From positions 1,674,001 to 1,738,000 of the forward strand of contig NC_009486.1 of the NCBI RefSeq assembly GCF_000016785.1: a stretch of 64,000 nucleotides of DNA, given 5' to 3'. Shown here piece by piece: positions 57,814-63,266 of this stretch. This DNA comes from Thermotoga petrophila RKU-1 (GTDB taxonomy: Bacteria; Thermotogota; Thermotogae; Thermotogales; Thermotogaceae). The notes below the pieces were generated by a model. That model was not told where the DNA came from. It did not search any database and saw only the letters and a list, made by a program, of their open reading frames with translations. The stretch's first letter is position 1. Each line of letters begins with the position of its first letter. The position numbers and the translations under genes were made by a program.

Positions 57814-58224
57814 TCACTCCTTCCTTTTGCTTAACCACTTCCTCAACACCTCAGCTTTCTCTACTCTGCCCAGTTTCAAATATGCCTGATATTCATACTA
57901 CATGGATAAAACCGGTTTACGGGATCTTCCCAGGTTTCATCTTCGAGCCGTTTTTGAATGTCTCCCATAAATATTAATTCACCGATAATGAGAACAGATT
58001 TTTTCCGTGGAAGAAAACCTGACCTTTTTACTTACGAACTCAGAGAAAATGCGTTCGATTTCATAAGCCCCTTCTTTATCAGTTTGAATGTCGATATCGT
58101 GAACTTCAGCAGGAACTCCCTACAGCGCAAAACTGAGACTACCCATAACTACCCAGTTCACTTTCTCATTTCTCAGTCGATCGTATATTTTGCGAAGAAC
58201 GCGAAAATATTAGGGCCTTATCAT
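57814..58224 (-). pseudogene. Decayed nucleotidyltransferase gene (Pol-beta superfamily)
   Basis: No single open frame, but reading the minus strand across frames gives a coherent protein. From ATG 58224 (behind GGGAGAT): MIRP, stop TAA, then VLRKIYDRLRNEKVNW, VVMGSLSFAL, stop TAG, GVPAEVHDIDIQTDKEG, AYEIERIFSEFVSKKV; a frameshift; FMGDIQKRLEDETWEDPV; a second frameshift, and EYQAYLKLGRVEKAEVLRKW then LSKRKE and TGA at 57814. The GS-x10-DxD active-site pattern (MGS...HDIDI) marks a nucleotidyltransferase. About 25 residues seem deleted between EDPV and EYQAY, judging from relatives as I remember them. At least two nonsense and two frameshift lesions make it a real relic. Confidence 0.85.
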
Positions 58225-58299
58225 TTTCTTATCTCCCTGGATAGTTTTTCATCTGAATTGTACCCTTCGCCATCACAAATATGTTATCACTACATATTG

Positions 58300-58308
58300 T
58301 GTTATAAT
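58300..58308 (+). promoter_or_regulatory. Extended -10 promoter of the two-gene membrane module
   Basis: TGTTATAAT (TGn plus a perfect TATAAT, 58303-58308) lies 56 bases before the ATG, with no convincing -35 box. Extended -10 promoters can work without one. Confidence 0.5.
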
Positions 58309-58364
58309 TATGAATAAGAAAATAATCTAATATCCTCATGACACCAGGTGGGGGATAAATCATT

Positions 58365-59600
58365 ATGAATAACGTTGATTTCAACAGTTTTTTCGAGGGT
58401 ATACTCTATGATTATTATTTACTGGAAGAATCACTTACTTATCTTAGAGATGAGAAGCAGATACAAAAAGAACTTGACCAGATCTACAAAGAATTAAGTC
58501 TCTTAAGATTTCCTATCAGCGTGAAAGATACTCTAGCAGCGATTTTTATCGGGATTGTTGCGGGATTATTTGAAGTCTTGATAAGTGAATCTGGTCTTGC
58601 CCCGGATCATAAGCACGAAGTCACCAGAGTACCTATCGATTATGCCATACCAAAACCACAGGGTTTCAAGGGCTCAGTATCAGATTTACATCGTCAAATA
58701 GGACCAGGACATGATCTTCTCAGATTCAAAGAAGCGATAGAGATGATGAAAGGGGAAAAGATTGATTTTCCACTCTGGGATAGCACAATATCAGAAGTGA
58801 TGAATGGAAAACTGCGACCGATAGGATTATCTATTGAAAAAGCTGAAGAATTAAATGGTTTCAATATTCCCGAACAACCTATCCTTGAGTGGTTAAAGCA
58901 TATGTATGTTGATCTCTTCACTAGGAGGAGTTTGCCCGTACCAGGTACTACTCTCATCGCTGATGGGAATCCAAGGGCCGCTGAGATAGTACTAAATATG
59001 TATAAAAATGGCTTCAACCTAAAAAATCTTTTGGCTGGTGGTATTGGAATACTAGCAATAAATGTTGGAATCAAAATTTATTGGTCACTAAAGTTATTTA
59101 AAGACAACAAAGATAGACAATTACCTTTTGTTGAAGCTTTTAAAGAGACAGAAAAACAATTAAAAGAAATCCAAAAAACAGAAAAGTTTACTTTTATGGA
59201 GATGATATCCTATGTTACATTAGTAATAATTAGCGGTCTAAAATCTGCTATTTTAAAGGAGCTGTTTTCATTTAATTTTGGTGCTTGCATCATGTTTATA
59301 AAAGCTTTATTGAGTTACATCAAGAAAATTCAAGAAAAAAGAAAGAATCTATTAGAAACTAAAAACTTGAAATTACTTGAACTATCGAATATAAATAATG
59401 CTTGGACTCGAACAACCGAAAAGCAAATTCTTTACGTAATAAATCTTATGAATGAGTATCAGCGTGTTATTTCTGATGATAAATCTAACTGTAAAATTGA
59501 ATTGGATAACGAAATATCAAATGAAAGGATGATTAAAGCTCTACGAGAAATAAAATTATATTTAGAAAACATACGAAGGAGGTATTCAGAAAATGAATGA
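58365..59600 (+). CDS. Multi-pass membrane protein of unknown function with His/Asp motif
   Basis: 411 residues, no family name I can give. Residues 10-48 are helical and charged; a membrane span lies at 54-74; then a soluble part with HRQIGPGHDLLRF (109-121) and WLKHMYVDLFTRRSLPVPGT (176-195), whose spaced His and Asp residues (H109, H116, D117, H179, D183) look like a metal site; further spans near 222-242, 276-296 and 301-320; and a charged helical tail from 325. GGTGGGGGAT precedes ATG 58365. The gene is A/T-rich with many AAT, ATA and TTA codons unlike the core genes, suggesting transfer. The next gene begins inside its last codons. Confidence 0.7.
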   Translation: MNNVDFNSFFEGILYDYYLLEESLTYLRDEKQIQKELDQIYKELSLLRFPISVKDTLAAIFIGIVAGLFEVLISESGLAPDHKHEVTRVPIDYAIPKPQGFKGSVSDLHRQIGPGHDLLRFKEAIEMMKGEKIDFPLWDSTISEVMNGKLRPIGLSIEKAEELNGFNIPEQPILEWLKHMYVDLFTRRSLPVPGTTLIADGNPRAAEIVLNMYKNGFNLKNLLAGGIGILAINVGIKIYWSLKLFKDNKDRQLPFVEAFKETEKQLKEIQKTEKFTFMEMISYVTLVIISGLKSAILKELFSFNFGACIMFIKALLSYIKKIQEKRKNLLETKNLKLLELSNINNAWTRTTEKQILYVINLMNEYQRVISDDKSNCKIELDNEISNERMIKALREIKLYLENIRRRYSENE

Positions 59601-60363
59601 ACTACAGAAAATGCCGAGGCAGTATGAAGAAATAAACAAATCAGATTCTAATTTTACAGAAATCATAAAGAAAGAGGTTACAGCAAAATTTATATCAGTG
59701 AGAGAAGAACTAGAAGAACTACGAAAAGATCTTGAAGAGTTGTCCGATTACGGAGAAGCCTTAGATATCATTAGAAACAGAAATGCATTTATTGGTTTCT
59801 TTACATCAAGTTATGATGTTAAGCGACTCGCAGAGATTGTATTTAAGCTTGTGAATTTGGAAAAACGTCTTACAAATTTCGTGCTTTTTTTAATAATCGC
59901 AATAATGCATGGAGTCATTGAATTCAGTGAAATAGAAAAGTATCTTCAGGAACTTAAACGTAATAAGAAGAATGATGATATTATTAACTTTATTGAAGAA
60001 AAACTGATGAAAGAGATAAAAGAGATACTTAAATCGGCAGAGATGTTTAATAAAAAATTTTATACAATAGAATCAAATCTTAAAATCATTTTCGAGCGCT
60101 TGACAAGAAACGAACAAACGACAAAAAAGAACATTGAATCTATCCATAAAATAGAGTCAGATCTCAAAGGTGTATCTGAAACCTTGTCAAAAGTTGAGGA
60201 ACTGGTGAGAAAAAACAGCGAGGAGATAAATTCTTTGAAATCAAATCTTATCAATGAACTTCAAATGGAAGTTGGTAAATTAAAACGTCGAGTAAAAATA
60301 CTCTCAGTTATGACTTTAGGAGCATTTGTTTCAGTTGTATTGTTCATTCTTCTTTTACTATGA
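59593..60363 (+). CDS. Tail-anchored coiled-coil protein of unknown function
   Basis: 256 residues. Charged helices at 30-60 (REELEELRKDLEELSDYGEA), a hydrophobic stretch TNFVLFLIIAIMHGVIEF (94-111), a long coiled coil (115-232) with repeated units such as IESDLKGVSETLSKVEEL and a C-terminal membrane helix ILSVMTLGAFVSVVLFILLLL-type at the very end (ends FILLLL). AAGGAGGTAT inside the previous gene precedes ATG 59593; the 8-base overlap shows translational coupling. I infer that it works in a membrane complex with the preceding protein. Shape recalls sensors or tethers in phage-defence pairs, but there is no known domain. Confidence 0.7.
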   Translation: MNELQKMPRQYEEINKSDSNFTEIIKKEVTAKFISVREELEELRKDLEELSDYGEALDIIRNRNAFIGFFTSSYDVKRLAEIVFKLVNLEKRLTNFVLFLIIAIMHGVIEFSEIEKYLQELKRNKKNDDIINFIEEKLMKEIKEILKSAEMFNKKFYTIESNLKIIFERLTRNEQTTKKNIESIHKIESDLKGVSETLSKVEELVRKNSEEINSLKSNLINELQMEVGKLKRRVKILSVMTLGAFVSVVLFILLLL

Positions 60364-60390
60364 TATCATTTCTTATCCTCAAAGAGGATA

Positions 60391-60627
60391 TCAATCCCAG
60401 ACTGCTTCAAGGCTTCCAATATCTATCTTCGTAATCAGATCTTTCCAGTGCACCATCTTCTGCTTGAATAGACACGGTTACTGTTATCCCTGAGAACCTG
60501 AAGTTCTTTTGAACTCAAAGCAATCCCCAGAATGCGTATATGATTTCCAATCTCCTGAATTTTTTTCAATTCTGACAGGTCCCCCTAAAATTCCTTCAAC
60601 AATGCATCCTTCCCTTGGACTAACCAT
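60391..60627 (-). pseudogene. Decayed small ORF of about 78 codons
   Basis: No long frame on the minus strand, but three protein-like segments join up with two compensating frameshifts: from ATG 60627 (GGGAG ahead) MVSPREGCIVEGIL; then, one base shifted, GDLSELKKIQEIGNHIRI and LGIALSSKELQVLRDNSNRV; then back in the first frame LFKQKMVHWKDLITKIDIGS and LEAVWD with TGA at 60391-60393. The family is not recognised. Beyond it, bases 60364-60390 hold a small hairpin (ATCCTC, AAA, GAGGAT) without a T-run; the rest of the stretch to 60673 holds nothing I can name. Confidence 0.5.
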
Positions 60628-60673
60628 GAAAAATTCTCCCGTTATATCTCAAACCTCTGAACTGTCCATTTTT

Positions 60674-61087
60674 CTATCTCTTCAACGGTTTTTTCAATCT
60701 GTACATCACAGGCTTCTTTTTCCCTGTCCATTCGATAAAACCTCGCAGTTCCAGAACACCAAGCACCATGTTTATCTTGTACCTTTCGCTTTTGCCACGG
60801 AATGGCTTTCCAGGGACTAATTCTTTAAGCAGAGAGGAAATTATGCTGGAACTCACTTCAGTATTGTTTCTAAGCGCTTCCATAATTTTTCTTATGACGA
60901 CATGAAAATGTTTGAGAGGAAAAAATGCTGATATGGGTTCTCTTTCCGAGCCCAAACAACTACCGATTTGTTTTTTTATTCCCCATTTGAAATACTTTGT
61001 CACAAGTTTCGAAGTTTCTTTTTCTTTTTCGAGTCCAAAAGAATCCGCTATCTGTTTGAAAACAACTGATGAATTCTTTTTGTCCAT
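60674..61087 (-). CDS. Hypothetical protein, third gene of the HARE-HTH nuclease operon
   Basis: 137 residues, no family recognised. A basic N-terminal half (SKLVTKYFKWGIKKQIGSCL), then a part that resembles a winged helix (MVLGVLELRGFIEWTGKKKP, ending VMYRLKKPLKR), so nucleic-acid binding is plausible. It starts 9 bases after the 52-residue gene and follows the nuclease on the same strand. Confidence 0.55.
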   Translation of the reverse strand: MDKKNSSVVFKQIADSFGLEKEKETSKLVTKYFKWGIKKQIGSCLGSEREPISAFFPLKHFHVVIRKIMEALRNNTEVSSSIISSLLKELVPGKPFRGKSERYKINMVLGVLELRGFIEWTGKKKPVMYRLKKPLKR

Positions 61088-61096
61088 AACCAGAAC

Positions 61097-61255
61097 CTAC
61101 TTCCTCTCAGAAACCTCTTCAACGGCTTTTATCAAATGGGAGTTCAGAAGGTCTATGACGCTTTTTATCATCTGGGACCCCAATTTTTCCTCCACCGTTC
61201 TTGCAACCAGTGAATCAACAGAGAAATACTCGAACAAACTCCGTAGATTATCCAA
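61097..61255 (-). CDS. Small protein of 52 residues between nuclease and 137-residue gene
   Basis: TTG 61255, overlapping the end of the nuclease gene by 8 bases and preceded by GTGGAGAAG, opens a frame of 52 codons ending TAG at 61097-61099. The peptide looks real: LFEYFSVDSLVARTVEEKLG in the middle and HLIKAVEEVSERK at the end, two amphipathic helices. It lies in the only long gap of this operon. Family unknown; the non-ATG start and short length make it less certain than its neighbours. Confidence 0.5.
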   Translation of the reverse strand: MDNLRSLFEYFSVDSLVARTVEEKLGSQMIKSVIDLLNSHLIKAVEEVSERK

Positions 61256-62045
61256 TCTTCTCCACTATGAGTTTCAGGTTTTCCAGAAAACTCGTCCTGT
61301 TTAGATAAGATCTTATGATCTCTTCTACAACATCATCAGTGTTACCGGGTGTTTCAAAGAGGCTTTTTAACTCAAGCAGGTTGAATGGGTATTTGGCATG
61401 TTCTTTCAAAAGTTCTATCAGATCTTTCACCTTCAAAAGAACAACACCACTTTTTTGGGCTCTTTTTTCCACGTTTCCTTTTGCAAAATCAGGTCCGACA
61501 ACGACCACAAAATCTGTTTCTGTTTTTTCTTTGTGGTCTTTCAGAGAAAACCAGTCTATCTGTATGTCTTCGATCTTTCCATGTTTGCTCGTTTTTCCAT
61601 CTACGTTCACCCTATAAGATTTCTCTCCCACTTCTGCTTTCAAAAGTACATCTGTGTTTCCAGGTGTTCCTATGAGTTCTGTCTCAAATCCCAGGAAAGA
61701 AAAAGCGTCTCTCAAGGTCTCTTCAAACTCCGATGGTGATGAGCTCTTGTATTGTGTTTCTTCCAGTCTTCTGATCAGATCTTCAAGTTCTGAACCTTCT
61801 CTTCTTCTTTCTGCGCTGTGCTCCCTCAGTGCGAATTTTCCCCTTCCAACTTTGACAAACGTGGAGGAATCACCGTGTAAAATGATGTCGTTGTACAAAA
61901 CACGACGGATTTTTGTCCTCAATTTGGACAAATTTTTCGGAGAATCGACTAGGTTCTCTCTTAATGCTATTTCCGCTATTTCTTTTGCACTCATGGGTCT
62001 TTTTTCTCTCTCCAAAATGAAGCGCACTATTTCCTTGAAGGTCAT
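61248..62045 (-). CDS. HARE-HTH domain restriction-endonuclease-like protein
   Basis: 265 residues. Residues 1-76 form a HARE-HTH domain (MTFKEIVRFILEREKRPMSA, then KEIAEIALREN and FVKVGRGKFAL), a winged helix found in restriction enzymes and thought to sense DNA modification. After a linker, residues 100-215 look like a PD-(D/E)XK nuclease of the Mrr type: EFEETLRDAFSFLGFE, GTPGNTDVLL with the metal Asp, and VNVDGKTSKHG where D-x-K stands for the catalytic D/E-x-K. AAGGAGTGAT selects ATG 62045 over GTG 62054. It likely cuts foreign or modified DNA; no methyltransferase gene is nearby. Confidence 0.8.
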   Translation of the reverse strand: MTFKEIVRFILEREKRPMSAKEIAEIALRENLVDSPKNLSKLRTKIRRVLYNDIILHGDSSTFVKVGRGKFALREHSAERRREGSELEDLIRRLEETQYKSSSPSEFEETLRDAFSFLGFETELIGTPGNTDVLLKAEVGEKSYRVNVDGKTSKHGKIEDIQIDWFSLKDHKEKTETDFVVVVGPDFAKGNVEKRAQKSGVVLLKVKDLIELLKEHAKYPFNLLELKSLFETPGNTDDVVEEIIRSYLNRTSFLENLKLIVEKIG

Positions 62046-62138
62046 TCCTATCACTCCTTGCAGGATTCCTTACAAATATGTTACCACTTCAAAATCTGAG
62101 AGGGAAAAGCTTCTATGTTACTTCTGCCCCCGAAAGCA

Positions 62139-62164
62139 ACTTCCGACCCCGGAAGTGATATAAT
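62139..62164 (+). promoter_or_regulatory. Promoter with inverted repeat ahead of the AAA ATPase gene
   Basis: ACTTCCG (62139-62145), loop ACCC, CGGAAGT (62150-62156) is a perfect inverted repeat directly ahead of a perfect TATAAT (62159-62164). The repeat fills the spacer and would be an efficient operator. No -35 match is seen. A half-copy-like CCCCCGAAAG lies just upstream. Confidence 0.55.
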
Positions 62165-62183
62165 AAAGATGGAGGTGATCGAC

Positions 62184-63266
62184 TTGCTCTTCTCCCTCAC
62201 TCCCAAGACGAAAAAGGAAGATCTCTTCGACAGAGAAAAAGAACTGAAAGACCTCGAAAAACTGCTCCAAACCTACCCGATCGTTGTGATCACCGGTCTG
62301 AGACGGGTTGGAAAGTCCTCCCTCGTGAAAGTCTTTCTGAACGAAAGCGATCTCTTACACATAACCGTGGACGGAAGAAGACTCTACGAAACATCGGGAG
62401 GTAACATCTCATCCCATCATCTCACAAGATTTCTCGGAGAAGAGCTGTCCAGAATATCGAAATCTCAGAAACTTCTGAACGTTCTCAAGAGGGTCCGTGG
62501 GATCACGGTGAGTGGAACATCGATAGAACTCAATCCAAAGGAGTTCAGTCTCTCTGATCTTCTCGAAAAGCTGAACGAAACGGCAAAGAGGCGAAAGAAA
62601 AAGATGGTCATCTTCTTCGATGAGGCGCAGTATCTCAGATACTACGGCTCTCGCGGCGGAAGCGATCTTCTGGCACTCCTTGCCTACTCCTACGACAACT
62701 TCGAAAACGTACGCTTCATCATCAGCGGTTCAGAAGTCGGCGTTCTCCACGATTTTTTGAAACTCGAAGACTACAGCTCACCCCTCCACGGCCGTGGAAT
62801 AGGTTTTCTCACGGTGAGACCGTTCACCTTCGATCAATCCGTGGACTTCCTCATGGAAGGCTTTCGAGAGGTGGGAGAGAAGGTCAACTTCGACGTGGAA
62901 GAAATCGTGAGAGAAATAGACGGCATAGTGGGGTATCTCGTCCTGTTTGGAGTGAAGTACCTCGAAAAGAAGAACAAAGATGAAGCGCTGAAAGAGGTGT
63001 TCCATGCCGTGAAGGCCCTTTTTGAAAAGGAAATGGAAGAGCTCAGAAAAAGGAGCGAAAGGTATCCGTTCATATTGAGACAGATCTCAAGAGGTATAAA
63101 CACCTGGTCTGCTCTGAAAAACATCTTTCGTGCAAAAGGCGACTTCATCGGCGACTCCCGATTGTACTCTCTCCTCGAAACTCTGGAAAAGATGTCCTTC
63201 ATAGAAAAAACACAGAGCGGATACAGAATAGTTGATCCGGTTTTTGAGAAGATTTTGAGCGAATGA
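62184..63266 (+). CDS. AAA ATPase of the archaeal ATPase_2 type
   Basis: About 360 residues. Walker A in VVITGLRRVGKSSLVKVF, Walker B in KMVIFFDEAQYL, sensor region VRFIISGSEVGVLHDF, then a C-terminal winged-helix-like part (YPFILRQISRGINTWSALKN). Such STAND-like ATPases are common in archaea and Thermotoga and some are linked to defence or mobile elements. GGAGGTG at 62171-62177 selects TTG 62184; the upstream open frame runs through the promoter. Divergent from the HARE-HTH nuclease, with an operator-like repeat in between. Confidence 0.85.
   Translation: MLFSLTPKTKKEDLFDREKELKDLEKLLQTYPIVVITGLRRVGKSSLVKVFLNESDLLHITVDGRRLYETSGGNISSHHLTRFLGEELSRISKSQKLLNVLKRVRGITVSGTSIELNPKEFSLSDLLEKLNETAKRRKKKMVIFFDEAQYLRYYGSRGGSDLLALLAYSYDNFENVRFIISGSEVGVLHDFLKLEDYSSPLHGRGIGFLTVRPFTFDQSVDFLMEGFREVGEKVNFDVEEIVREIDGIVGYLVLFGVKYLEKKNKDEALKEVFHAVKALFEKEMEELRKRSERYPFILRQISRGINTWSALKNIFRAKGDFIGDSRLYSLLETLEKMSFIEKTQSGYRIVDPVFEKILSE

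Follow-up and report, generated by a model that had tools for sequence, protein, structure and literature searches.

We found that two coupled genes of Thermotoga petrophila RKU-1 encode a membrane protein (P0001) that is very probably, from its sequence, a distantly related member of the BnzB superfamily, and a coiled-coil membrane protein (P0002) that apparently replaces BnzA or PDC-M09A as a new type of partner. In the Bunzi anti-phage system, BnzB is the membrane subunit. A Bunzi-like B protein with an unseen partner, in reversed gene order and in Thermotogota, is new here. The pair is likely to have a role in defense. With more reserve, we favor the view that it was acquired horizontally and is an anti-phage module, Bunzi-like but highly divergent, which acts by the mechanism proposed below. 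The genes are in a stretch of 64,000 nucleotides (the window), corresponding to positions 1674001-1738000 of a 1.82-Mb single-contig genome (G000:C1). Coordinates below are those of the window, and the features of the pair are:

58365..59600, + strand: P0001, probable BnzB-superfamily membrane protein, 411 amino acids (open reading frame, profile matches, tblastn)
59593..60363, + strand: P0002, coiled-coil membrane partner, 256 amino acids (open reading frame, Shine-Dalgarno sequence, heptad periodicity, C-terminal transmembrane helix)
58300..58308, + strand: extended -10 promoter element TGTTATAAT (perfect TGnTATAAT; consensus only)
58632..58640, + strand: P90-x-D92 motif of P0001 (alignments; P-x-D in most relatives, not universal)
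58689..58715, + strand: H109-R110-x5-H116-D117 motif, predicted metal or catalytic ligands (alignment of 11 divergent members)
58899..58943, + strand: H179-xxx-D183...L190-P191-x-P193, predicted metal or catalytic ligands (invariant in 11 members; profile-aligned to the HxxxD of YdjM)

Both reading frames are intact. They overlap by 8 nt, and P0002 is preceded by a strong Shine-Dalgarno sequence (AAGGAGGT). The promoter element, 57 nt upstream of P0001, is one of two perfect TGnTATAAT sites in the window (both strands counted). GC content is 38% at 58365-59009, 28% in the rest of P0001 and 31% in P0002, compared to 45% for the whole window. These findings agree with the initial annotation, made from the sequence alone, which had described two coupled A/T-rich genes at 58365-60363 with their own extended -10 promoter. 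The split in composition within P0001 separates the conserved core (38%) from the C-terminal part (28%), and the C-terminus may have recombined together with P0002.

P0001 matched the PADLOC model of BnzB (E=1.3e-5). To avoid circularity, we rebuilt the profiles leaving out P0001. P0001 was recovered by the family profile (E=9.5e-17), by a profile of the Bunzi-type members alone (E=3e-4), and by a profile of the actinobacterial members alone (E=3e-10). With each of these three profiles it ranked first, apart from the listed family loci, in a set of 2,194 reading frames. Because profiles made without P0001 still recover it as the top frame, we regard homology to BnzB as established. In a profile-profile comparison, P0001 and its actinobacterial relatives matched a full BnzB with 99.2% probability, and the locus of that BnzB also has a BnzA with a TerB domain. 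Searches by tblastn with P0001 found proteins of Rhodococcus plasmids (E down to 9e-8, 22-32% identity). The similarity is remote, with ~20-25% identity to any family member, and searches of Pfam, NCBIfam and PDB sequences with P0001 gave no match. Pattern scans of viral contigs and genome contigs with P0001 as the single query protein were equally negative.

The initial annotation had called the module unrecognised, with no known domain. This was not borne out, because the first gene belongs to the BnzB superfamily. "Multi-pass" holds insofar as P0001 has at least two hydrophobic helices (residues 51-69 and 222-240), which flank the core. We also considered P0001 as a housekeeping transporter, an identity that had been named as contrary to the original proposal, and there was no such match. 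Structure prediction, which had been recommended, was carried out with AlphaFold2; the model of P0001 (4 sequences) had a pLDDT of 36 and was unusable. A relative (locus L098, 8 sequences) gave a pLDDT of 56, and Foldseek comparison of this model with PDB and BFVD gave no match at E<=0.001. Both models are too poor to inform.

Conservation is concentrated in a His/Asp core. Among 11 divergent members, G100, H109, H116, H179, D183, L190, P191 and P193 (P0001 numbering) are invariant (11/11) and D117 is nearly so. The H116-D117 pair and the HMYVDLF block are present as first described. At positions 220, 233 and 237, P0001 has K/N/K, in contrast to the R/E/R that is nearly invariant in its relatives. 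This downstream R/E/R is common in the superfamily and we did not take it as defining.

The core resembles that of YdjM (COG1988; PF04307): P-x-D, HR..H and HxxxD..(V/L)P follow each other in the same order, at similar distances, and adjoin membrane helices. The majority of BnzB-family proteins have about double the length. Among the non-family frames, E. coli YdjM ranked first in one profile build (E=0.64), second in another (E=2), and first with the actinobacterial profile (E=1.4); it was absent with the Bunzi-only profile. The YdjM profile score in the first build was reached by 1/300 column shuffles and 0/200 block shuffles. When the test was rebuilt, the count was 6/300 shuffles, taken against the lower score of all YdjM proteins (18.2) and not that of the subset that was shuffled (20.2). 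Comparison of the BnzB family with YdjM by hhalign gave a probability of 0.5-2%, which is not significant. The Pfam YdjM model (PF04307) had no match in 11 BnzB-family members at E<=10, and P0001 as a Pfam YdjM protein is not supported at this threshold. Our results are at most suggestive of a relationship between the HR..HD/HxxxD core and the YdjM membrane metal hydrolases, as a lead and not as membership.

P0002 has a significant heptad repeat in residues 115-235 (reached in 0/2000 shuffles) and a C-terminal hydrophobic helix (residues 236-254), as expected from its description as a coiled-coil protein ending in a membrane helix. The search for relatives detected no homologues of P0002, and a pattern scan of viral contigs with P0002 found nothing. 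Pfam DUF7032 matched P0002 (9e-7). We discounted this as an effect of the coiled coil, since dozens of unrelated families of coiled-coil proteins match P0002 as well.

We found that BnzB relatives typically have a partner gene. In 19/22 loci, a neighboring gene has the same orientation and encodes a membrane protein with a coiled coil, as read from annotations, open reading frames and sequences in a convenience sample in which several plasmid loci are closely related. The exceptions are L006 (a broken copy), L007 (truncated) and L020 (an outlier). Ten partners were confirmed with BnzA or PDC-M09A profiles. Homologues scattered without linkage had been named as a finding that would refute the original proposal; the pairing in these loci is the opposite. 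P0002 resembles the partners of the relatives in general build (membrane segment plus coiled coil, co-oriented, adjacent).

The relatives are found on plasmids of Rhodococcus, on enterobacterial IncHI2 plasmids, on plasmids of lactic acid bacteria, and on other mobile DNA. Further relatives of P0001 were found in Nocardia, Gordonia and a Rhodococcus MAG, and a genome of the same phylum as the Gordonia relative has a full BnzB (6.8e-80) adjoining a BnzA with TerB. The family reaches hundreds of enterobacterial plasmids, mostly conjugative, and IncHI2 in those examined. Three IMG/VR contigs with family members carry serine recombinases; the phage records searched contained no family member. Several relatives adjoin defense genes: CBASS genes (L004), SIR2 and ThiF/JAB genes (L009), a SIR2-type gene (L013, as read from the sequence), and McrB-like restriction genes (L099).

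Other genes recur beside the relatives. Two Rhodococcus plasmids have a TerD-family gene after the BnzB-like gene (L003, 8971-11118; L009, 8972-11068). In enterobacterial plasmids, a gene resembling trypsin-like proteases (GCSGGPYI) is just upstream of the BnzA-like/BnzB pair (L024, 4633-5280; L087, 849-1505) and could be a third component. In clostridial-type elements, another small membrane protein, which has an HTH at its N-terminus, is encoded upstream of the BnzA-like gene (L097, 2325-2858; L099, 2982-3470); it is possibly a membrane-linked regulator.

The pair is like Bunzi in that P0001 matches BnzB and keeps the HR-x5-HD and HxxxD..LPxP core, and in having two coupled genes, a coiled-coil membrane partner and a defense-island context. 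It differs in that P0001 is ~20% identical to BnzB and shorter, and in gene order: the window has B and then the partner, whereas textbook Bunzi, as in Lactococcus (L026; BnzB 5e-153, BnzA 2e-126), has A and then B. P0002 also lacks the TerB domain of BnzA and the glycine-rich transmembrane hairpin of the relatives' partners. It had no match to the PADLOC BnzA model and hhalign gave 0.1%, so that a divergent BnzA is not supported. We do not class the pair as Bunzi because homology of the partner to BnzA was tested and not found. PDC-M09 is a phage-defense candidate of PADLOC, and the gene order of the pair is that of a BnzB hybrid with it: in Lactiplantibacillus (L027), BnzB (1.1e-100) is followed by a PDC-M09A partner (2e-70). 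The actinobacterial relatives of P0001 also have partners of the PDC-M09A type. However, P0002 matched PDC-M09A neither with the PADLOC model nor by hhalign (0.8%). A publication naming PDC-M09 was not found in the literature searched.

The pair is located in a 3.8-kb cassette, together with remains of Hma genes, that is missing from three congeners (G091-G093). In these genomes, the sequence passes directly from window position 58294 to 62077. The features of the cassette and its left flank are:

57820..58224, - strand: nucleotidyltransferase pseudogene (Aminoglyc_resit, PF10706), left flank (tblastn against the intact gene of G092; Pfam)
58275..58301, + strand: left direct repeat, cassette boundary (repeat search; junction in relatives)
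60369..60499, - strand: HmaC (DUF499) 3' remnant, frameshifted (tblastn, 85% and 78% to residues 819-862 of the intact HmaC of G094)
60501..60669, - strand: HmaA (SNF2 helicase) 5' remnant (tblastn to residues 1-56 of the intact HmaA of G094)
60680..62045, - strand: HARE-HTH/Mrr-type gene, frameshift near 61254 (tblastn, 67% and 61% to the intact 480-amino acid gene of G094; Pfam HARE-HTH and Mrr_cat)
62072..62098, + strand: right direct repeat, cassette boundary (81% identical to the left repeat; junction in relatives)

The direct repeat at both ends begins ACAAATATGTTAYCACT. We favor gain of the cassette here over loss in the congeners, because the pair is absent from the other Thermotogota searched and is AT-rich. 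Of the other 102 Thermotogota genomes that we searched, none had the pair; a single coiled-coil match was due to chance. Two matches, L002 (for P0001; an SMC/Rad50-like ATPase) and L023 (for P0002; a coiled-coil lipoprotein-like frame), were rejected because both fall in long coiled-coil reading frames.

Every cassette gene except the pair is broken. The two gene relics between which the pair had been placed can be identified as the nucleotidyltransferase pseudogene, with in-frame stops and an internal gap relative to the intact G092 gene, on the left, and the remains of HmaC, HmaA and the HARE-HTH/Mrr gene on the right. A deletion of ~9 kb at 60500/60501 accounts for the HmaC/HmaA remnant. 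The initial annotation also had a HARE-HTH nuclease operon beside the pair. Comparison by tblastn with the intact gene of G094 indicates that this is not a working operon but the wreck of a single gene, split by the frameshift. The AAA ATPase that had been placed beside the pair is present (62115-63266), but it is part of the conserved flank and outside of the cassette. Hma is a three-gene defense system, HmaABC (PMC8565338). Although its remnants and the HARE-HTH/Mrr gene directly adjoin the pair, the pair is not part of Hma, and the intact Hma locus of G094 lacks it.

The literature searched gave no mechanism for Bunzi, which is listed as unknown in this respect (PMC12926258). We propose that the His/Asp core of P0001 (H109, H116, D117, H179 and D183), predicted to bind metal, would hydrolyze a membrane-proximal substrate, e.g., phospholipid or a lipid-linked phosphate. 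Membrane-anchored P0002, which we infer to be a sensor, would hold P0001 inactive at the membrane. Disturbance of the envelope by infection would cause P0002 to release P0001, which would then damage the membrane by metal-dependent hydrolysis, and infection would be aborted. A metal hydrolase step is possible rather than probable. Lack of homology of P0002 to BnzA or PDC-M09A, the missing TerB domain and glycine-rich hairpin, the reversed order of the genes, K/N/K in P0001, and the statistically weak link to YdjM count against the overall reading. The original guess of a defense-type system is supported by the BnzB family, the partners of the relatives, the neighboring defense genes and the local Hma relics.

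The pair might also be Bunzi-like by family and work without hydrolysis, by partner-driven pore formation or membrane depolarization, with the conserved His/Asp residues of the B protein being structural or binding a regulatory metal. Membrane permeabilization ends many abortive systems, the glycine-rich hairpins of the relatives' partners are typical of oligomerizing membrane segments, and the link to YdjM is weak, all as this alternative would have it. However, the strongest conservation is in the HR..HD/HxxxD core of the B protein and not in the partner, and the hairpin is missing from P0002; we consider pore formation unlikely here. It seems improbable that the pair is a Ter-type module for response to metal, tellurite or envelope stress and not dedicated to phage. 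TerB in BnzA, the TerD-family gene after two Rhodococcus relatives, and the location of relatives on large IncHI2 plasmids are consistent with such a role, whereas the CBASS, SIR2 and restriction genes beside other relatives count against it. The phage-tested Shango system likewise contains TerB domains (PMC10250203), and defense systems are where Bunzi is listed (PMC10952713).

Alternatively, the pair could be toxin-antitoxin-like, or a decaying accessory pair with no present function that happened to survive in a dead island. Addiction would be a conceivable role for a membrane toxin with a coiled-coil partner, the rest of the cassette is broken, and no other Thermotogota among those searched keep the pair. 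Against this, both frames have stayed intact over 2 kb of very AT-rich DNA, with a promoter and a Shine-Dalgarno sequence, and all of the putative active-site residues are kept while the neighboring genes are frameshifted or truncated. We give this alternative little credence. Even as a divergent Bunzi-like module, the pair might itself be in the course of being lost, as the rest of the cassette decays.

P0001 extends the Bunzi-like family to Thermotogota, and a constant membrane subunit with variable partners suggests partner swapping in this family. More speculatively, and with considerable doubt, the BnzB superfamily might consist of YdjM-like, membrane-embedded, metal-dependent hydrolases that act as exchangeable effectors of abortive infection with swapped sensors (TerB-BnzA, PDC-M09A, short glycine-hairpin proteins), the Thermotogota pair having a further, unseen coiled-coil type of sensor. 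HR-x5-HD and HxxxD are kept in a thermophile relative that is only ~20% identical, which makes the active-site hypothesis testable with ordinary mutants, and the pair gives a testable lead on the working of a defense family that is so far unexplained.

Counterparts of the broken cassette genes were found at other loci. In the congener G094 (L079; G094:C4:41500-61000), positions 1588-12312 of L079 contain an intact operon of HARE-HTH/Mrr, HmaA, HmaB and HmaC, an Hma system, and its upstream HARE-HTH/Mrr-type gene is possibly an extra Hma component. The genome of the pair has a second, intact HARE-HTH/Mrr paralogue of 584 amino acids (G000:C1:1771464-1772413; L080, 2465-4219) that adjoins an AAA ATPase and a DEAD-type helicase. 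Another DUF499/HmaC-like gene (816-amino acid frame; G000:C1:1781333-1782808; L100-L102) is ~10 kb from this paralogue.
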